Shown one piece after another: positions 3,047 to 35,231 of a stretch of DNA of 40,508 nt. How positions within the stretch are numbered: the stretch's first letter is position 1; every line of letters starts with the position of its first letter. Below the pieces are notes generated by a model. It saw only the letters and a list, made by a program, of their open reading frames with translations, did no database searches and was not told where the DNA came from. Source of the stretch: a virus. The DNA is taken from the IMG/VR virus record IMGVR_UViG_3300010370_000077, positions 1 to 40,508 of that record. The stretch is one strand, 5' to 3'. Made by a program: the position numbers and the translations under genes.

Positions 3047-6000
3047 CAGGTGATCTGCCTGCCGTGACCAACGGCTTGATAGTCGAAAGTCTTACTCACT
3101 ATCGTAGCCCCGCTGTTCCTAAAGGTCACGGTAAAGCCTGTCCGGCTAATGCTCGACACTGTGAAGTAGTCGCCGGTACTCATGTCCTGCGCCGTGATGC
3201 CCACGCTCGGTGTGCCGTAGAACGCGGTCGGGAAGGTCACCGCATACGCCCCGGCGCCGCTGGTTTTGTTGCGTTCGCTCTCCACCCGCCGCTGGAATTG
3301 CGTGATCACGCCCAGCTCCTCCACCACCACGTTCTGCGCCGGGTTGTTGCTGGTGGCCTCAACCTTGAACTGGAAGCCCCGACCACGGGTGGTGTTATTG
3401 ACGAACGGCTGCCATTCGCCCCAGGTCGGTGTGCCGCTTGGGTTATCAGCCGTTGTGCGGACATACAGCTGGCAGTTGGCAGCACCGAGGTCATCGCCGT
3501 CAATGTCATCCCACAGGTCGATATCCTCCAGGCGGTCATCCCAGAGGTTGCCGGGTTCGTAGGCGCGGGTCTTCAGGATGTTCCGCAGGTCAATGTCGTA
3601 GGTGCCGCCCAAATCCAGCGTCTCGGCAAAGATGTAGCTGCCTTCGCTTGCGGCGCCACCGATGTAGTCAATCAGTCCCAACGCATCCCAATCGCCATCG
3701 GTGGCCATGTCATCCACCAACGTGTCGGACGCCAGGATCAACCCGATTTCCTCCTCGTTGTAGGACATGTTGTTGGTGGTGCCGTTGAACGGCGGGCTGT
3801 TGTCCTCCTCGCGGTATTCCTGGATCAGCAGGGTGTCTTGCGGTGCCGGCAGGTCGACGATGACGGTTGCCGTGCCAGCTGATTCGTTGCCGGTGGAGTC
3901 AACCGCACGGATGAAGTAGGTGCCCTCCAGCAGCGGGACAATCTTGCGGGTGCTGCTGCCTGCAACGGCTGGCACAATATCGTTCGCCTGACCCCAGGTG
4001 GCTGTGCCATCAGCGAGGGGGCTATGGCGGATGCGGATCTGACCGCCAATCTTCACGTCAATATCAGCTGCCTGCGGCCAGTACAGCTCCGCGTTTTTGT
4101 CGTCAATCGGTGCGATGAACAGATCTGGGATGGTGTTCGGCGGTGCGGTCTTGCCAATGGCATCAAAGGTTGCCGTAGCAGCGTTGCTACCTCGCCGGGC
4201 TGAGTTCTCAGTGGTGATCTCAAACTCGTACCGCCCCACCTCAGTGTCCAGGATTTCGTACTCCGGCGCTTTGGGGTAGTGGGTGGTCCAGTTGCCGTTA
4301 GCGACGCGATACCGGAAGCGATACTGATACGCCTGCGGGATTGGCTGCCAGCTGACGATGATTTTCTGGACAACCTGCCCGTTGCTTTCGTAGAGGTATT
4401 CCGCCGCTTGGATGTTGCTGGTGGCCGGCGGTGGCACGTTCAGGTTTGTGATATCCCGCACCGGGATCTCTTGGTGCCGCTCCACGTAGTCGTATTTCTG
4501 CGCTGAATACGCCAGGCCGGTGATGGTGTAGAGGGCACCGTCTTCTTCGGTAACGCTGAGAACACGCCAGAGCGTTGGGCGAACATCGTCTGAGCTGATG
4601 ACAAAAGGCGCACCAGGCTGCGGGGTGCTGACCAGTGCCGTCTCAAGGAAGATCAGGTTGCCGCTACTGCTGCTGATGCGGCTGCTGCCGAACGTGCCAT
4701 CAGGCAGGAGGACACGGATGACAGGGTTCTGCGTCAGGTTCGGGATAACTGTTTGCGTGGTGTCATCAATCAGGATCTGAGTGGTGGTGGCAGTATTGAC
4801 GCGACCGCCGCGACGCTCACCGCTGATCACCGGGTCATAGACCTGCACCACATCACCGGGGCGGACCATGATGCCGGCATCGGCTGAGGTCTGGAATGAG
4901 ATGGTGTTGGTCTCGTTCTGCTCGCTGTAGAGCATCCACTCACCGATACGGCGTGCCTGGCCGCGTGATGTGCAGGCGAAGGCGGAAATGTCAGCCTTGA
5001 CGACGCCATATTTGGCGATGGCCTCTGCGTCTTGGACCACCTCATAGTTCACGTCGCGTGCGTCGAGGTCCATGTAGGACACCTGCACGACGGTGTGGCG
5101 GGTCTTCAGGCTGCTGCCGCTGTAGGTGAAATCACCGTTGATGACGTTTGCCGGAGAGAAGCAATAACTGAAATCGGTCGGGCGGTCTTGGGCAAGGGCA
5201 AGCGCACCAGTGCTCCAGAACGGCATGGCTCGGAATGTTGAGCACATGTCATTGATGAGCTTGTATGCCTCCTCCTGGGTTTGGATGTTGACCGAACAGG
5301 AGAAGCGCGGCTCAAATACGCCGGTGCCGTCGTCGATGCCGTGTCTGCCAGTTTGCGCGTCGTAGTCGTCGGTGGTGCCCGAACGGCCGTCAGTTAAGTA
5401 GGTATTCCGGGCGGAGCAGTATTGGCTGGCTTCGTAGAACGCCCACTTGTCCAGCTTGCTGGCTTGGATGTGGTCGCCAAAGCCATAACGCTTGCTGGTG
5501 AGCAGATCCCACAGGATCCAAGCCGGGTCTGAGGTCCACTGCGTACCGCCCCAGGTGTAGCCGCCGCTGGTGCTTTGCGTGAAGGTGCCATCCCACGGCT
5601 CATCCTTAAAGATCAGCGCACCACGGCCATAAGGTCCCAGTGCAGGGCGGGCATTGCTGGGGATTTGAACCTTGATGCCACGGATGCGGAACGAGCGGCT
5701 TGGGATACTGCCGAACTGTTCTGCGGGCAGGACAAAACCAACTATTGCACTATTGGGATAACGCAGTTTGGAGTAAATAATTTCGCTATATGACGCCCAG
5801 TAAATCTTGTCAATCTGGGTGAAATTTACGCCAGTAGGAGCATCTTCGGTTTTTCGCAAAACACGAATAGCTACACTTGAAGTCCAAGCTTGCTTGAACT
5901 CAACGACAAAAGATCTTTGATATAGGTCAGCGGTGCGACCCAAGAATTTCATTCTGCTATCAGTTTGCGGAATTCCACCATTGGCAGGGTCTGATGAAAA

Positions 6001-26650: not shown

Positions 26651-26678
26651 TAAAAAAGCCCCACGCAATGGTGGGGCC
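26651..26678 (-). terminator. Rho-independent terminator after the ssDNA-binding gene
   Basis: Minus strand GCCCCAC/GTGGGGC stem (arms 26677-26671 and 26664-26658) with a six-base loop, followed by TTTTTT. Outer bases AATACC/GGTATT could extend the structure. Confidence 0.9.
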
Positions 26679-27423: not shown

Positions 27424-29835
27424 GTGTCGCATGTGACGCAAGAGTTGCTGGCATTTGTGCGCCAGCTGCCGCCTGGTATTGCCTACGCGCCTATTTACGC
27501 CAAGGGGCAGGCCATTCAGTCCGGGAAAATCAGTAAGGGCAAAACCCCGTTGGAGCGCAGTCACCATCAGGTGATGACGCCGGCGGATGTGGCGCTCCAG
27601 ATCGAGCGCAAGCCGGAGGTGTTCAAGGCGGTGGGAGCGTTCACCGGGCCCCGTAGTGGTGGTCTGGTGATCTTGGATGTGGACCGCAACCTGGCTCGCC
27701 TTAAGAAGAAGTGGGGCTCCAGCCTGGACGGGGCGCCGGTGGTTGAGTCCACTAAGTCCAACGCTGCGAAATACCTGTTCCGCGTGCCTGAAGGCTTGTG
27801 GGCTGAGGTGAAGGGGATTGGCCTGTCGGATACCGGGGCGGGCTACGAGGTCCTCTGGGGCCGCCAGGGGCTCCTCTACGGGGCTTATCCGGGCTCTAGC
27901 GATGGGAAGGCGCCAGAAGGGCAATACGGCTTCACAGGCGATCTGGAGGCCATTCCAGACGCTCCAGAGTGGTTGATCGCGGAGATGAAGGATGCCGCTG
28001 GCCGTGAGGTGCAGGACGGTGGCTTCATCAAGAACCGCAAGGCGCTGGACTTTTCGGATCGAGACCCAGATGAGATTGCTGAGATTATTCAGTCGGCGCT
28101 GAAGGTGATCCCCGGTCAGGGCGCTGGCAGCCGGGATCACTGGGTCAAGGTGGGCATGGCGATTCACTCGGAGCTGCCGAACGAGCGGGGCCTGATGCTC
28201 TGGTCGGCGTGGTCGGCTGAGGATCCGGAATACAGCGATGAGTGGGCTGGCTCCAATCCCTGTGAGGAGGTTTGGAAGAGCTTTCGGAAGGGGCCGGTAA
28301 GCCTGGGCTCGCTGTTTTGGCTGGCGGATCAGCAGCTGCCTGGGCGGCTGTGGTTGTCGGAGGATCTGCGGAAGGTGGTGGCCGAGGTTGAGGCCGATAA
28401 CGTCACCCGGATTCGCCAGGTTGTCATCACCTATGCCGAGGTGATTCGCCGGGCTAAGGAGATCCAGGAGATCCAGAACCCGGCGGAGGCGGCGCACGCC
28501 ATGAATGTGCTGGCTCTGGAGGCTGGCTACCGCGATGCTGGGGCTCTGGAGCGGTTGCTGATCGCCCAGATGCAGTTCGAGCAGCAGGACGACGAGATGG
28601 CCATGAGCAGGCTGTTGGAGAAGGACCTGAAGTTCGAGTACCTGATCCCGGATCTGCTGCCTTGCCCGGGCACTGTGATGATCCACGGCGCTGGTGGTGA
28701 TGGCAAATCAATGTCGGCCTGGACTATCGCCAAGCACGTGGCCCGCGGGATTCCGTTCTCGGTGCGGGGTGATCTTGTTCCAGTGCAGTCCGGGCCTGTT
28801 CTGATCCTCAACGGTGACCAGAGCGAGGTGCAGGTTCAGCAGCAGCTGCGGGATCTGGAGTTTCAGGCGAGCGACCCCGTGACCGTGGTGATGGGGTGGG
28901 ACCTGAACTGGTACTACCGCTTCACCAAACTGATCGAGAAGCACCGGCCCAAGCTGGTGATCATCGACTCGATCACGGGTTGCAGCCGTGGGTCGGCGTT
29001 CGATGAGAACAAGAAGGAGTTTGCGAGCCCGATCTACTGGTTGGCTAACAACAACGGGCGGACTTTCCCGGCCTGCACGATCCTGCTGATTCACCACGCC
29101 AACAAGACCGGTGGGTTCCGGGGCAGCACCGCCATCAGGGACGCTGTGGATGAGGTGTGGGGGCTGCGGCGGCCCGATAAGAAGCAGCTGGAGCAGACCG
29201 GCGCCAATGCTCGCCTGATCACCGTGGAGAAGTCCAGGGCTGGTCGTGATGGCAGCAAGCTGCTGATGAAGCTGGAGAGCGACCTGACGTTCTCGCTGAC
29301 CGACTACGTGGAGCTGGATGGCGATAGCTCCAGTCCGGCTTCCATCGTGGATCGGGTGCTCCAGCGCATCAGGGCTGCCTACCCACGCTCGGTCAGTCGG
29401 TCTGATCTGGCGGCTGATCCGTTATGCGGTGGCAGCGTCGCTGGAATTAAGAAGGCGACCCAGCGATTGGTCTCCCGTGGTCTTATTTGTGTCTCAGGTG
29501 AGACGCCTGGGAGGAATGGTGCTCCAGGTAATCCCTTGTTCCAAGCAATTACCTCGCGTGAAAAGCCTTTAAAAGTGTGTCCCTCGGTATCAGAAGCCTT
29601 GGTACGACTGGAAAAGGTACCGGGACACGGGGTAGAGGCTGTCCCGGTCCCCCTTGACGATCTGGTAACTGGCACAGACCCCCGGGACACCGATTCGGGC
29701 TGTCCCGGTATAGAAGCCAGTCATACCAATGGATCTGGTACCGAGGGACAGCTTTTGCATGGCTCCCCAAGGGAAGAACGGTCGGCGGAGGAGTTGACCG
29801 CCCTGATGGAGCAAGCCGCACAGCTTTGGGACTGA
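27424..29835 (+). CDS. Primase-polymerase / superfamily 4-like helicase fusion
   Basis: An 803-residue protein from GTG 27424, with GGAG at 27411-27414 as ribosome site. Residues about 30-200 form a primase-polymerase domain (GPRSGGLVILDVDRN). Residues 205-300 match the PriCT_2 region (DHWVKVGMAIHSELPNERGL ... LGSLFWLAD). Residues about 400-640 are a RepA/DnaB-type ATPase with Walker A (HGAGGDGKS), Walker B (KLVIIDSITG) and LLIHHANKTGGFRGST. A winged-helix-like segment follows at 645-700. The last 90 residues are disordered and encode the nested repeat cluster. It would prime and unwind DNA for the phage polymerase. Confidence 0.93.
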   Translation: MSHVTQELLAFVRQLPPGIAYAPIYAKGQAIQSGKISKGKTPLERSHHQVMTPADVALQIERKPEVFKAVGAFTGPRSGGLVILDVDRNLARLKKKWGSSLDGAPVVESTKSNAAKYLFRVPEGLWAEVKGIGLSDTGAGYEVLWGRQGLLYGAYPGSSDGKAPEGQYGFTGDLEAIPDAPEWLIAEMKDAAGREVQDGGFIKNRKALDFSDRDPDEIAEIIQSALKVIPGQGAGSRDHWVKVGMAIHSELPNERGLMLWSAWSAEDPEYSDEWAGSNPCEEVWKSFRKGPVSLGSLFWLADQQLPGRLWLSEDLRKVVAEVEADNVTRIRQVVITYAEVIRRAKEIQEIQNPAEAAHAMNVLALEAGYRDAGALERLLIAQMQFEQQDDEMAMSRLLEKDLKFEYLIPDLLPCPGTVMIHGAGGDGKSMSAWTIAKHVARGIPFSVRGDLVPVQSGPVLILNGDQSEVQVQQQLRDLEFQASDPVTVVMGWDLNWYYRFTKLIEKHRPKLVIIDSITGCSRGSAFDENKKEFASPIYWLANNNGRTFPACTILLIHHANKTGGFRGSTAIRDAVDEVWGLRRPDKKQLEQTGANARLITVEKSRAGRDGSKLLMKLESDLTFSLTDYVELDGDSSSPASIVDRVLQRIRAAYPRSVSRSDLAADPLCGGSVAGIKKATQRLVSRGLICVSGETPGRNGAPGNPLFQAITSREKPLKVCPSVSEALVRLEKVPGHGVEAVPVPLDDLVTGTDPRDTDSGCPGIEASHTNGSGTEGQLLHGSPREERSAEELTALMEQAAQLWD
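29578..29750. repeat. Three nested variant-matched inverted repeats
   Basis: Six TGTCCC..GGTA elements alternate in orientation. The outer pair TGTCCCTCGGTA (29578-29589) and TACCGAGGGACA (29739-29750) is a perfect 12-base inverted repeat that includes the extra TC/GA. The middle pair TACCGGGACA (29618-29627) and TGTCCCGGTA (29701-29710) is perfect over 10 bases. The inner pair TGTCCCGG (29640-29647) and CCGGGACA (29682-29689) is perfect over 8. All lie inside the disordered C-terminal coding part of primase-helicase. Confidence 0.85.
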
Positions 29836-30179
29836 TGGACCGCTTTAAGCCGCCTAACTTTTTCCTAGGGCTCATGCGGGTTGCCGCGTGGCTGATCTGG
29901 AGGGAACCCGTGGCCAAGTCGGAACCAGCACCGCCGAAGCGCCCCAGGAAGCCAACCTTGGGATTCACGGTGGGTGACATACCGTTTGAGCTGCTGGCCG
30001 TGGTGCGGATCGCCTGGTACCGCAAGGGCATGGCGTACGAGGTGGAGGAGTACGTGATCGAGGAGTGCCCGGATGCCCAGGCGCAGTTCCACTACATTGT
30101 TGGGACGGCGCTGAAGCAGGGTGCTGACGTCTGCGTTCTGACCCAGTACCAGCCGGAGGACCTCGGGGTGCCGACTTAG
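29835..30179 (+). CDS. Unknown protein coupled to primase-helicase
   Basis: A 114-residue protein from ATG 29835, which overlaps the primase-helicase stop by one base (TGATG). The N-terminus (MDRFKPPNFFLGLMRVAAWL) could be an amphipathic or membrane-touching helix. It is followed by a proline- and lysine-rich linker and a helical domain (FELLAVVRIAWYRKGMAYEV, EEYVIEECPDAQAQFHYIVG). The last segment resembles a small winged-helix or tetratricopeptide-like helix pair, but no family is recognised. Ends 34 bases before the terminator-like hairpin. Confidence 0.75.
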   Translation: MDRFKPPNFFLGLMRVAAWLIWREPVAKSEPAPPKRPRKPTLGFTVGDIPFELLAVVRIAWYRKGMAYEVEEYVIEECPDAQAQFHYIVGTALKQGADVCVLTQYQPEDLGVPT

Positions 30180-30182
30180 GGC

Positions 30183-30211
30183 TTGACACCCATCTGTTTA
30201 GGTGTAACACT
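30183..30211 (+). promoter_or_regulatory. Sigma-70-type promoter
   Basis: TTGACA at 30183-30188 is a perfect -35 box. TAACAC at 30205-30210 (or AACACT at 30206-30211) is a fair -10 box with 16-17 bases between. Predicted transcription start is near 30217, inside the hairpin that follows. Confidence 0.75.
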
Positions 30212-30212
30212 A

Positions 30213-30247
30213 AGGACAGCTCACACCCCGTGGGCTGTCCTATTTTT
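30213..30247 (+). terminator. Strong terminator-like hairpin immediately downstream of a promoter
   Basis: AGGACAGCTCAC (30213-30224) pairs with GTGGGCTGTCCT (30230-30241) with a single G-U pair and a five-base loop, then ATTTTT. It would end transcription from the primase-helicase operon. For the promoter at 30183 it would lie at the very 5' end of the RNA. Confidence 0.85.
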
Positions 30248-30256
30248 GTACTACAA
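30246..30256 (+). promoter_or_regulatory. Palindrome TTGTACTACAA before the next gene
   Basis: TTGTA-C-TACAA is a perfect 11-base inverted repeat around one base. It begins in the T tract of the terminator and ends directly before the GTG start at 30257. Its core TACTACA recurs before four other genes. Confidence 0.6.
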
Positions 30257-30499
30257 GTGGAATTTTTTACGCACACTGAAATTGAAAACACCAAGCTCAG
30301 CCCTTGGTACTTCGCCGTCCATTGGGCTGGCATGGTGCTCCAGCAGAAAATCGCCGACATGGAAGCCGCTGGCGGCGATCCCATCTACGACATCCGCCAG
30401 CTGGAAAACCTCCAGGAACTGGAGATGTTTTTGAAGATGAGCTGGGACCAGTGGCTTGACAACCTCCAGGCTCGGCAGACTGCTCAGGAGACCAAATGA
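30257..30499 (+). CDS. Small unknown protein after the terminator
   Basis: I place the start at GTG 30257 (80 residues, VEFFTHTEIENTKLSPWYFA ... AGMVLQQKIADMEAAGGDPI ... LEMFLKMSWDQWLDNLQARQ). A GTG at 30230 would put the start inside the terminator stem, so it is less likely. There is no Shine-Dalgarno sequence, which suggests leaderless or weak translation. It is mostly helical and acidic. It overlaps the next gene by four bases (ATGA). No family recognised. Confidence 0.7.
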   Translation: MEFFTHTEIENTKLSPWYFAVHWAGMVLQQKIADMEAAGGDPIYDIRQLENLQELEMFLKMSWDQWLDNLQARQTAQETK

Positions 30500-31376: not shown

Positions 31377-31763
31377 ATGAACATGCACATTCTTTCTGAC
31401 CAGCAGTTCCAGACGATTACTACCGCCCTGGAGCAAGCCTTCGTTGCTATCAACGCTGCCCAGCACGTTGAAATTGACCTGACCACTTCCAAGCAAATTG
31501 CCCCAGCCGCTAAGGCAGAAAAGGCGGTAGCCAAGCCGAAGTCTCAAAGTAAGACTCGTAAGTCCAGCCGCAAGGCGAGGGCGGCGCTGACGGAGAAGAA
31601 GGTGCTGGAGATCAAGCGCCAGCTGCAGGCTGGTGGCAAGTCGGTGGCCAAGATTGCCCGGGAGTTTGGGGTGCATAGCACCACCATCAACTGCATTAAG
31701 TGGGGCAAGACCTGGAAGCATGTGACGCTCCAGCAGGACAAGGCCGCGACCGTGGTGGGCTGA
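31377..31763 (+). CDS. Small DNA-binding protein with C-terminal helix-turn-helix
   Basis: A 128-residue protein. The N-terminal 40 residues are helical (LSDQQFQTITTALEQAFVAI). Residues 45-70 are a lysine/serine/alanine-rich linker. Residues about 72-118 form a helix-turn-helix (LTEKKVLEIKRQLQAGGKSV, then AKIAREFGVHSTTINCIKWG and KTWKHV) of the type found at the C-terminus of HNH homing endonucleases and in small phage regulators. The second HTH protein at 32708 has the same layout. Its own upstream TGTACTACA element could be its target (inference). Confidence 0.82.
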   Translation: MNMHILSDQQFQTITTALEQAFVAINAAQHVEIDLTTSKQIAPAAKAEKAVAKPKSQSKTRKSSRKARAALTEKKVLEIKRQLQAGGKSVAKIAREFGVHSTTINCIKWGKTWKHVTLQQDKAATVVG

Positions 31764-31765
31764 GG

Positions 31766-32278
31766 GTGGCGGTTCTTTCTGACGTTGATATTCACGCGCT
31801 GGCGCGGCGTGATCTTGTGACCCCGTTCGTGCCGGAGCTGGTGAATCCAGCGAGTCTCGATGTGAGACTCGGCGAGAACTTGCTGGTGGAGTTGCCGTCA
31901 ACGCCCCAGTTGGTGCCCTACTCCATTGCAGGGTGTACGCAGGAAGAACCGTTCATGCTCCAGCCGCATGAGTTCGTGCTGGCGGAGACGCTGGAGGAGT
32001 TCCGGTTGCCTGACTGTATTGCTGGGCAGCTGGCGCTCAAGTCCAGCCGGGCGCGTGAAGGGATCGAACATCTGCTTGCCGGATATGTCGATCCCGGATA
32101 CGCCGGTCGCCTCACGCTGGAGTTGCAGAACGCACGCTCCATGCACGCGGTGCCGTTGTGGCCTGGGATGCGGATTGGGCAGATTGTGTTCCATACGCTC
32201 ACCATGCTGCCAAGCAAGGACTACTCAAAGACTGGCCGTTATCACGGCGATACCCAAGTTCAGGCTTCTAAAGGATGA
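31766..32278 (+). CDS. dcd: dCTP deaminase (dCTP deaminase/dUTPase family)
   Basis: I start at GTG 31766, two bases after the preceding stop, giving 170 residues from VAVLSDVDIHALARRDLVTP. Key motifs are VNPASLDVRLGENLLVE, FVLAETLEEFRLPD, KSSRAREG (Ser and Arg of the substrate site) and GYVDPGYAGRLTLELQN (catalytic Glu in LEL), then WPGMRIGQIVFH. The enzyme converts dCTP to dUTP, or directly to dUMP in the bifunctional type. It adjusts nucleotide pools for phage DNA synthesis. The frame upstream to 31700 shadows the HTH gene. It shares ATGA with the next gene. Confidence 0.92.
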   Translation: MAVLSDVDIHALARRDLVTPFVPELVNPASLDVRLGENLLVELPSTPQLVPYSIAGCTQEEPFMLQPHEFVLAETLEEFRLPDCIAGQLALKSSRAREGIEHLLAGYVDPGYAGRLTLELQNARSMHAVPLWPGMRIGQIVFHTLTMLPSKDYSKTGRYHGDTQVQASKG

Positions 32279-32535: not shown

Positions 32536-32711
32536 TGCCGACTCGATTTCGTACCGTCAAGCTGGTGACGTACGCAGTGCATCGGCAGGGTGGCTGGATT
32601 GAGCGCCAGCCACACGCCATGCCGACCTACACCGTTAAATTGCCCGACGGAGATCCAGCTGGACCCTTCAACCGGAAGGAACTGATTACTTGGGCGAACA
32701 TCAATTTGTGA
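32535..32711 (+). CDS. Small unknown protein (58 residues)
   Basis: Translated by eye from ATG 32535, which overlaps the DUF3310 stop by one base: MPTRFRTVKLVTYAVHRQGG, WIERQPHAMPTYTVKLPDGD, then PAGPFNRKELITWANINL and TGA. Basic N-terminus, beta-rich centre. It overlaps the next gene by GTGA. Its full use of the space and double coupling support it as real. No family recognised. Confidence 0.7.
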   Translation: MPTRFRTVKLVTYAVHRQGGWIERQPHAMPTYTVKLPDGDPAGPFNRKELITWANINL

Positions 32712-32920
32712 AGAAGCGGCCCCCGACCAAGACGTCGTTCAAACCTGGGTCGATTCCAGGGAACTCAGTTTTGACGGCACAGAACGCGCTGGACATTAGG
32801 CAACTCCACGCCGCTGGCTTCCCGCTTAACCAGCTGGCCAAGGTGTACGGGGTGTCGTACCAGCATGTTTGGGCCATCGTGAACAACAGGAAGTGGCGAA
32901 ATGCGCTGCAGCAAGTGTGA
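32708..32920 (+). CDS. Small helix-turn-helix protein
   Basis: A 70-residue protein from GTG 32708 (GTGA overlap with the preceding gene); a TTG at 32690 is less likely. Residues about 27-66 (ALDIRQLHAAGFPLNQLAKV, then YGVSYQHVWAIVNNRKWRNA) form the same helix-turn-helix type as in the 31377 gene. The first 25 residues are basic and proline-rich (KKRPPTKTSFKPGSIPGN). A transcription regulator or a relic of a homing endonuclease DNA-binding tail; the intact coupling argues for a functional gene. Confidence 0.78.
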   Translation: MKKRPPTKTSFKPGSIPGNSVLTAQNALDIRQLHAAGFPLNQLAKVYGVSYQHVWAIVNNRKWRNALQQV

Positions 32921-33110
32921 TCACGAGAGGTTTGATGTAGATCGGACTTGCCGGGATACGGCGGAGACGATTTTGCGCCAGCGGAAATGCGTTAGGTGCG
33001 GGCACAAGGTTTTTACGGTGGAAGTCGAGTTGCCCGATGGTGCAGCTCATCACACCAGGTTCGGCAAGATGAAACGCTTGCCGGGATTTTTACGATTCAA
33101 GTTTTTCTGA
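32901..33110 (+). CDS. NrdR-like zinc ribbon protein
   Basis: A 69-residue protein whose first 43 residues, MRCSKCDHERFDVDRTCRDT, then ETILRQRKCVRCGHKVFTVE, reproduce the four-cysteine zinc ribbon of the ribonucleotide reductase regulator NrdR, including the R.R.C..CG..F.T.E end. The ATP-cone domain of NrdR is absent. Phages often carry such minimal ribbons; binding DNA or host NrdR is conceivable. No ribonucleotide reductase gene is in the window. It overlaps the HTH gene by 20 bases and the next gene by one (TGATG). Confidence 0.8.
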   Translation: MRCSKCDHERFDVDRTCRDTAETILRQRKCVRCGHKVFTVEVELPDGAAHHTRFGKMKRLPGFLRFKFF

Positions 33111-33404: not shown

Positions 33405-35231
33405 ATGGAAATCCTTTTTGGCATCGAGCACCTCTCCACTTTGGAGGGGGCGACTACTGTTGCATTTGACGTGGAGACGACTGGGCTCCAGCCGACCCAG
33501 GGTGGGTTGCGGTTGCTCCAGCTCTGTACCTACGGCAAAACGCCGGTGGTGATCGATTGTTTCGCACTTGAGACTAACGATTGGATTGAGCTGGAGGAAT
33601 TTTTTGAGATTGAGCGCACCTGGATCGCCCATAACGCGGTGTTTGATCTGGGTTGGCTCCAGGAATATGAGATTTATCCGGCGGGCAAGGTTATGTGCAC
33701 CATGCTGGCCAGCCGCGTGCTCACCAATGGTTTGGCCAACGTCAAACACGGTTTGCAGCATGTGGTGAAGCGGTATCTGAAGGAGGAAATTTCTAAGGAA
33801 GAACAGCGCAGTGACTGGTCTGGTGATCTGACCCAGAGCCAGATGGAATATGCCGCTAAGGATGTGGTGGTGTTGACCGAGCTGGAGCGGCAGATCGCGC
33901 AGCGGATGGCTACAGGTGGTCTGTATCCGGCGTGGTTGCTGGAGTGCAGTGCGCTGCCGGCGATGGCGCAGTTATGGCGTACAGGGCTTCCTTTCAACAA
34001 GGAATCCTTGACCCAGTTGATTGAAGACCTCGATATTGAACACCACGAGGTTGGTGAGAAATTCATCGAGGATTTCGACGCGGCGTTGCCCGAGCGCGCC
34101 AAGCTGTGCCGGGGGCTCGATAACAAGCTGCTGTACCAGACAAAGCCTGGCGCAAAAGGAAAGAAAGTTGATGCCGATATTTTTAATCTCAATAGTCCGG
34201 CGCAGCTGCTAAAGAAGTTCACCGCATTGTTGGGCGAAGCGCCGATTGATCCAAAGACTGAGAAGCAGAGTGCAAGTAAGGCTGCGCTCCAGGAATATGT
34301 TGCAGAGCACAAAGTTATTGCTGATTATTTGCGGTGGAAGCGTGTAGAAAAGCGGAGGCAGATGGCGGAGACGTTGTTAAAGAATTTGTCGAAAGACGGG
34401 TTTATTCGTGCCAGTTATCTGCAGATGGGTGCGGATACTGGGCGGATGAGTTGCATGAGTCCCAACCTGCAACAGATTCCGCGGGATCAGCGGTTTAGGG
34501 CGTGCGTTCAGGCTCCAGCTGGCTGGCGACTGGTTGTAGCGGATTACGGCGGGATGGAGATGCGGCTGGCGGCCGCTGAAGCTCAAGATCCTCTTATGAC
34601 TCGGGCGTTCCAGCAGGGGAAGGACCTGCATACGATTACGGCGATGCAGATCTACGGGGTCGCCGAGGATGAGGTTACGAAGGAGCAGCGCCAGATTGCA
34701 AAGTCGGCCAACTTCGGTTTGTTATACGGAAGCGGTGCAAAAGGACTCAGAAATTATGCAGCAACAATGGGAATCCAAATGGATATTGATGAGGCGAAAG
34801 AGGTGCGGGAAAAGTTCCACGCTGCTTATACGGGGATCCACGAGTGGCAGTACAAAAATGCTCGCGCTGCTGATGCGGCTAAGGACAATCCATCTATCAA
34901 CATCCGCATATCGGGGCTCCGGCGGTTTCTTCCGGGTGAGAACAATAAACTCACCACCCGTTGCAACACTCCAATCCAGGGGGCCGGTGCCGCCGTGCTC
35001 AAACTTACGCTCAGCAAACTGTGGCCGCTCCTTAGAGCAGACCGGGAAGAGCGGGTGCGCTTGGCCGGCGTGGTGCATGACGAGATCATCTTGCTCGTCG
35101 TAGAAGAACACGCCGAGACTTGGGCACTCCAGCTGCAAAAAATCATGGAAGAGTGCGAGGCTCGTTGGCTTGGTGATATTCCGCCGCTGGCCGAAGCTAA
35201 GGTCGGGTTGAGCTGGGATCAGGCAAAGTGA
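33405..35231 (+). CDS. DNA polymerase, family A with 3'-5' exonuclease
   Basis: A 608-residue replicative polymerase. The proofreading domain (residues 1-190) has Exo I VAFDVETTGL, Exo II IAHNAVFDLGW and Exo III YAAKDVVV, all with their acidic residues. The polymerase domain has motif A VADYGGMEMRLAA, motif B EQRQIAKSANFGLLYG and motif C VHDEIILLV. There is no 5'-3' exonuclease domain, as in T7-type phage polymerases. The residue aligned with E. coli Pol I Phe762 is Phe (SANFGLLYG). Motif A carries GGME in place of the usual SQIE. It is coupled by GTGA to the next gene. Confidence 0.96.
   Translation: MEILFGIEHLSTLEGATTVAFDVETTGLQPTQGGLRLLQLCTYGKTPVVIDCFALETNDWIELEEFFEIERTWIAHNAVFDLGWLQEYEIYPAGKVMCTMLASRVLTNGLANVKHGLQHVVKRYLKEEISKEEQRSDWSGDLTQSQMEYAAKDVVVLTELERQIAQRMATGGLYPAWLLECSALPAMAQLWRTGLPFNKESLTQLIEDLDIEHHEVGEKFIEDFDAALPERAKLCRGLDNKLLYQTKPGAKGKKVDADIFNLNSPAQLLKKFTALLGEAPIDPKTEKQSASKAALQEYVAEHKVIADYLRWKRVEKRRQMAETLLKNLSKDGFIRASYLQMGADTGRMSCMSPNLQQIPRDQRFRACVQAPAGWRLVVADYGGMEMRLAAAEAQDPLMTRAFQQGKDLHTITAMQIYGVAEDEVTKEQRQIAKSANFGLLYGSGAKGLRNYAATMGIQMDIDEAKEVREKFHAAYTGIHEWQYKNARAADAAKDNPSINIRISGLRRFLPGENNKLTTRCNTPIQGAGAAVLKLTLSKLWPLLRADREERVRLAGVVHDEIILLVVEEHAETWALQLQKIMEECEARWLGDIPPLAEAKVGLSWDQAK

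Follow-up and report, generated by a model that had tools for sequence, protein, structure and literature searches.

A candidate compact insulator-promoter with a 5′-terminal mRNA stem-loop at a phage operon junction

Introduction

Can a promoter serve its own gene if the RNA made from it starts within a terminator hairpin? This question is raised by a short intergenic region in a viral DNA of 40,508 nucleotides (IMG/VR virus record IMGVR_UViG_3300010370_000077, positions 1 to 40,508). The whole stretch is referred to here as the window, and positions are counted within it. An earlier note, made from the sequence alone, described a promoter, a terminator hairpin and a palindrome stacked in 74 bases (30183–30256), and proposed either self-antitermination by the nascent RNA or production of a short RNA. 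The region is considered here together with its relatives in other viral contigs.

The locus and its relatives

In the window, the structural genes are on the minus strand and the replication genes on the plus strand. The promoter and hairpin occupy a 77-base gap between the stop codon of a 117-aa gene (30177–30179), which lies 3 bases 5′ of the −35 box, and the GTG of an 80-aa gene at 30257. The features are:

29826–30179, plus strand: 117-aa gene, the last of the upstream primase/helicase operon
30183–30188, plus strand: −35 box TTGACA, read directly; TTG(A/C)(C/G) in relatives
30203–30211, plus strand: extended −10, TGT followed by AACACT; TG, AAC and T−7 invariant in 47/47 non-redundant copies
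30212–30217, plus strand: discriminator AAGGAC, AAGGGC in most relatives; also supplies the outer part of the 5′ arm in the full hairpin
30213–30241, plus strand: full 12-bp hairpin with one U-G pair, predicted to form only in RNA reading through from upstream
30218, plus strand: predicted transcription start, A (+1); A in 47/47 copies, with the conserved 5′ stem start peaking here
30218–30236, plus strand: truncated 7-bp hairpin (−9.4 kcal/mol), predicted to open the RNA made from this promoter
30242–30247, plus strand: T tract ATTTTT, not conserved
30246–30256, plus strand: palindrome TTGTACTACAA; relatives read TATTACAA and similar
30257–30499, plus strand: 80-aa gene, GTG here and ATG in relatives; product acidic, predicted two-helix hairpin

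The downstream operon also contains a dCTP deaminase-like gene (31700–32278) and a family A DNA polymerase with 3′–5′ exonuclease (33405–35231).

No DNA similarity of the window to named phages was found. Among named phages, the 117-aa protein has distant relatives only in the Synechococcus phages KBS-S-2A and S-H1, and the window terminase has many matches, cyanophage S-2L among them at 42%; from these two proteins, we infer picocyanobacteria as hosts of the window phage. The carriers of the element in general are freshwater phages, probably with cyanobacterial hosts.

The unit recurs in viral contigs. An 18-mer from it, TGTGYAACRCTAAGGRCA, occurs in 103 stretches of the viral collection, with one copy in each; in 103/103 it sits 46–52 nt before the ATG of a protein family of 75–95 aa, to which the 80-aa gene of the window belongs. 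With the two flanking proteins as queries, 74 and 80 viral loci were matched. When aligned on the −10, the relatives show TTG(A/C)(C/G), 17 nt, TG(T/C) AAC(A/G)CT AAGGGC A, a hairpin, and an unstructured leader that often ends in TTACAAATG. The gap before the unit ranges from 76 to 930 bases. In many relatives it is filled by other sequence, and the unit remains next to the 80-aa gene. In bacterial genomes, the 18-mer has nine scattered matches, none of them cyanobacterial, which were taken as chance. The linked gene family has been found more than 100 times in metagenomic phage contigs and was not found in the named phage records searched.

A repeated phage-wide promoter was considered and rejected, since the element is single copy. 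This is the case in the window; among 14 contigs searched whole, 13 (40–59 kb) contain the exact 18-mer once, one of them with an additional match at one mismatch.

The promoter and its predicted start site

The −35 box is perfect, as first described, and a spacer of 17 nt ending in TGT (30203–30205) separates it from AACACT (30206–30211). Compared with a sigma-70-type promoter (−35 and −10 hexamers 16–18 nt apart), the −35 and the spacing conform and a TG extension is present, but the −10 departs from the consensus; the core is invariant in relatives. The earlier 'fair' −10 box is correctly located; the adjective was generous, as the hexamer has only 3/6 matches to TATAAT and a plain sigma-70 scan of the window makes no call there. 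Seven positions (T−15, G−14, A−12, A−11, C−10, T−7 and A+1) are invariant in the 47 non-redundant copies, and this invariance makes even a poor −10 credible as a promoter element. Its distance from TATAAT may reflect a phage-modified or alternative polymerase, or the site may be bound by a protein instead of being a −10.

Because TG, AAC, T−7 and A+1 are invariant, the transcription start is predicted at A30218, within the 5′ arm of the hairpin. To this extent, the earlier proposal of a start inside the stem is supported.

One hairpin in two transcripts

The 12-bp stem followed by a T tract is present as the earlier note had it. Its arms (30213–30224 and 30230–30241) enclose a 5-nt loop, and the stem is GC-rich and directly precedes ATTTTT in RNA arriving from upstream, as in intrinsic terminators. 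The fold has a z-score of −2.9, with 1/200 shuffles equally good. Terminators were scored with a purpose-written function of the d'Aubenton type, combining hairpin stability with a T-tract score. Among 14 terminator-like sites between 25 and 35 kb, the full hairpin ranks first, and no other such site was found between 29876 and 30200; its score in the window, 8.4, is modest. Elsewhere in the window, good terminator-like hairpins with TTTTT tails are seen at 26657–26678 on the minus strand and at 33060–33085 on the plus strand, the latter overlapping the end of a small ORF (32901–33110).

The picture differs for RNA initiated at the local promoter. It had been stated that such a transcript would begin with a terminator. 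Starting from A30218, 5/12 stem pairs are lost; the predicted folding energy is −9.4 kcal/mol compared with −27.3 kcal/mol for read-through RNA, and the terminator score falls from +8.4 to −36.8. The promoter's own RNA scores above zero in 0/47 copies wherever the start is set between −1 and +4 relative to the prediction, and would contain the full terminator only if begun at least 4 nt further upstream. Given the start at A30218, the statement is not supported.

What the local RNA would carry instead is a stem-loop at its extreme 5′ end, with 0–2 unpaired bases before it in a leader of about 35–40 nt. In 39/47 copies, a stem with 5 bp or more begins at nucleotides 1–3, compared with 3.2% of shuffles; the eight copies without it share one C-A mismatch. 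The count of copies with such a stem is at its maximum exactly at the predicted start and drops when the start is shifted either way, which is a separate indication of this start.

These results also bear on an attenuator, in which most local transcripts would stop at the hairpin as RNAs of about 30 nt and expression of the operon would need antitermination. The window hairpin does precede ATTTTT, and a start at or upstream of 30214 would make it score as a terminator. From the conserved A+1, however, none of the 47 own RNAs scores as a terminator, and no conserved sequence was seen that could pair in its place. The T tract on which a short RNA would depend is not conserved; its position reads GTTTCT in the nearest relatives and CTCTAC or CCCGTG in others. 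Such an attenuator is unlikely, and the short RNA of about 30 nt envisaged earlier finds no support.

The palindrome TTGTACTACAA does run up to the start codon as described, abutting GTG 30257, where relatives carry ATG. It is not conserved; arms of at least 4 bp occur in only 6/47 copies, and the closest relatives have only 2 bp. The palindrome is probably due to chance, the region being just unstructured leader, and a functional role was rejected for want of conservation. Matches to TTGTACTACAA with two mismatches number 14 in the window and 4.9 in shuffles, where palindromes count on both strands; no positional pattern among the window matches was seen.

A terminator on either side of the promoter

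In relatives, a terminator may lie on either side of the promoter. The start-side hairpin scores above zero in 14/47 copies, the window included, and a hairpin on the −35 side does so in 11/47. An example of the latter is CAGCCCGG-TTTGACG-CTGGGCTG-TTTTT, in which the −35 box forms the loop. Shuffles of the 47 copies never score above zero for either side (0/282). Terminators on both sides are found in 0/47 copies (Spearman −0.42), a mutual exclusion supported by few independent events. In the phylogeny of the 80-aa family proteins, the side switches at least three times. Twelve of the 47 relatives are borderline, and ten have no convincing terminator on either side in the scored stretch; two have one further upstream.

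Since the side varies, both sides are never occupied together, and at least three switches are seen, the comparison indicates that the operon has repeatedly retained a terminator ahead of it, though not always in one position. Clades with the terminator on the −35 side have the short 5′ hairpin as well, and this suggests that the hairpin has a second role.

Pairing in RNA or a site in DNA

Stem and loop sequences differ between clades and the pairing persists. When arms were recombined between relatives, they paired worse in 500/500 trials, both for all copies and within the 'down' clades. In the 'up' clades, covariation of the short hairpin is weak, with 6/500 recombined trials reaching the native value. 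U-G pairs occur in several clades and a C-A mismatch in one clade of eight (counted by eye). The persistence of pairing over different stems, the poorer pairing of swapped arms and the U-G pairs modestly favour a role of the hairpin in RNA.

A DNA operator is the alternative: a repressor or activator would bind the inverted repeat at +1 together with the conserved AAGGGCA, and the RNA hairpin would be incidental. In keeping with this, the start site falls within the repeat, conservation of the discriminator is high, and helix-turn-helix-like genes lie nearby (31377–31763 and 32690–32920). A protein site would not be expected to vary as widely in sequence, length and centre while its pairing persists, nor does an operator sit easily with U-G pairs that arose in several clades against a single C-A clade, or with terminators on the promoter's other side in other clades. 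This explanation is judged improbable, if slightly less so than the attenuator.

Whatever its role, the combination of promoter and hairpin is beyond chance, given the gene linkage in 103/103 stretches, the 5′ stems in 39/47 copies and the 0/500 result of arm recombination.

Proposed mode of action

The unifying point of the proposed mechanism is that the fate of an RNA would depend on where it starts. A compact junction would join two co-directional operons. Polymerase arriving from the primase operon would transcribe the whole hairpin and the T tract, and stop. The promoter (TTGACA, 17 nt, TGT-AACACT) would start RNA at A30218, in the 5′ arm of the terminator hairpin, and polymerase starting there would make only the inner 7 bp and would not terminate. 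The reading as origin-dependent termination is based on the local RNA, which lacks the outer stem and never scores as a terminator. Since the inner 7 bp would not terminate, the operon headed by the 80-aa gene would be driven by its own promoter and shielded from transcription that arrives from upstream. The short hairpin left over would form a 5′-terminal stem-loop on the mRNA and, by analogy, would probably slow 5′-end-dependent decay.

We consider a compact insulator-promoter with a 5′-terminal mRNA stem-loop to be the best explanation, at a probability of roughly 0.55; the sequence, its conservation, the pairing, the gene linkage and the scores are direct observations, and start, termination, insulation and mRNA protection are inferred. 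The further proposal of a self-insulating promoter, in which one hairpin ends every upstream RNA and no local RNA, and the terminator changes sides with its function kept, is put forward more tentatively, at somewhat below even odds. As for protection, a stabilising effect of 5′ stem-loops on mRNA is known (PMC3997798). This step is borrowed from E. coli and is less certain in cyanobacteria, because no close RppH homologue is known in them (PMC10989914).

If the insulator-promoter reading is right, about 75 bases are enough for a phage to finish one operon, insulate the following one and start it. It also gives a simple, testable rule (same DNA, different RNA 5′ end, different fate), and the element may serve as a useful compact insulated promoter.

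The 80-aa gene family

The 80-aa protein is predicted to form two long helices (pLDDT 89). The protein and two diverged members have no matches in named phages, and none was found for the 80-aa protein in PHROGs and Pfam. A sequence search of the PDB gave only marginal ribosomal matches (E > 0.5), and a fold search of BFVD gave nothing at E ≤ 0.001. As the first gene of a replication operon, it might be guessed to have an early host-directed or replication accessory role. Its strict linkage to the promoter marks this uncharacterised family as a good target.

The one-to-one linkage of leader and gene, and the small two-helix product, also bring to mind an RNA operator, in which a protein of the phage, possibly the 80-aa product, would bind the 5′ hairpin and control translation of its own mRNA. 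The product is acidic, with a net charge of −6 to −7 for the five members calculated, loop and stem lack sequence conservation, and some 20 nt separate the hairpin from the start codon. These properties speak against such control, which is judged quite improbable, below both the DNA operator and the attenuator.

Other elements in related loci

Some related loci (L012, L013, L018, L067, L068, L110, L160, L164, L175 and L267–L332) contain a conserved block of about 100 nt, GCCGGTGGCTGGTCCTCACGCGGTGCCAGCC..CCGCAGCCGGCC..CTACGG..CTTAGC, that is not in the window. It folds as an H-type pseudoknot with an inserted hairpin, and covariation is strong: 96% of cells are paired and 8/18 pairs are doubly changed (0/500 shuffles). 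At least 120 viral stretches carry the block, ahead of or next to a variety of genes; these include, by appearance and judged by eye, a sigma factor (L267, L301). Among the matches listed, it precedes the 80-aa gene in only 5/99 new stretches. No credible Rfam match was obtained in the loci scanned, and the block was not found in named phages. By its predicted fold, it is a candidate for a hitherto unknown structured RNA.

In L110, an abiF RNA (RF03085, 52.8 bits) lies at 3546–3582, in the gap before the unit. L013 and L110 have tRNA-like 3′ ends (GGTTCGAGTCC..) between the 117-aa gene and the unit; ARAGORN calls no tRNA in this gap, and the ends are possibly decayed tRNAs or integration scars.

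Comparison with known systems

In the titles and abstracts of the open-access literature, no matching precedent was found for phage promoters overlapping terminators. Three known systems share parts of the arrangement.

The put RNA of phage HK022 suppresses termination through the β′ zinc-binding domain of RNA polymerase. In a mechanism of this kind, the nascent leader would bind RNA polymerase, and later terminators would be ignored. The likeness is a structured RNA near a phage promoter, at the very start of an operon as in HK022 putL (PMC9378689). Put RNAs are about 70 nt long, with two stem-loops and conserved sequence (PMC9378689), whereas the window element has neither this length nor these properties: the leader is about half as long and, across relatives, has one hairpin of 5–12 bp (5–7 bp in the local RNA) whose stem and loop differ between clades. 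An Rfam scan of the promoter/hairpin region gave nothing credible. The earlier comparison with put is rejected on anatomy, since the hairpin is single, its sequence and loop are unconserved and the transcript lacks its base; put-like self-antitermination is very improbable, the least likely of the alternatives.

The 5′ UTRs of E. coli ompA and papA open with a hairpin that hardly any unpaired bases precede (PMC3997798, references 92–95), as is predicted for the RNA of the insulator-promoter. In the window, the hairpin would be the inner half of the upstream operon's terminator, protection is proposed by analogy, and the host decay machinery differs in that no close RppH homologue is known in cyanobacteria (PMC10989914).

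The terminator at the end of Tn916, an example of intrinsic terminators that serve as insulators in mobile elements (PMC11658703), is similar in that a hairpin and T tract exclude upstream transcription from the next unit. The window element differs in its predicted start inside an arm of the terminator and, in other clades, in a −35 box that forms the terminator loop.
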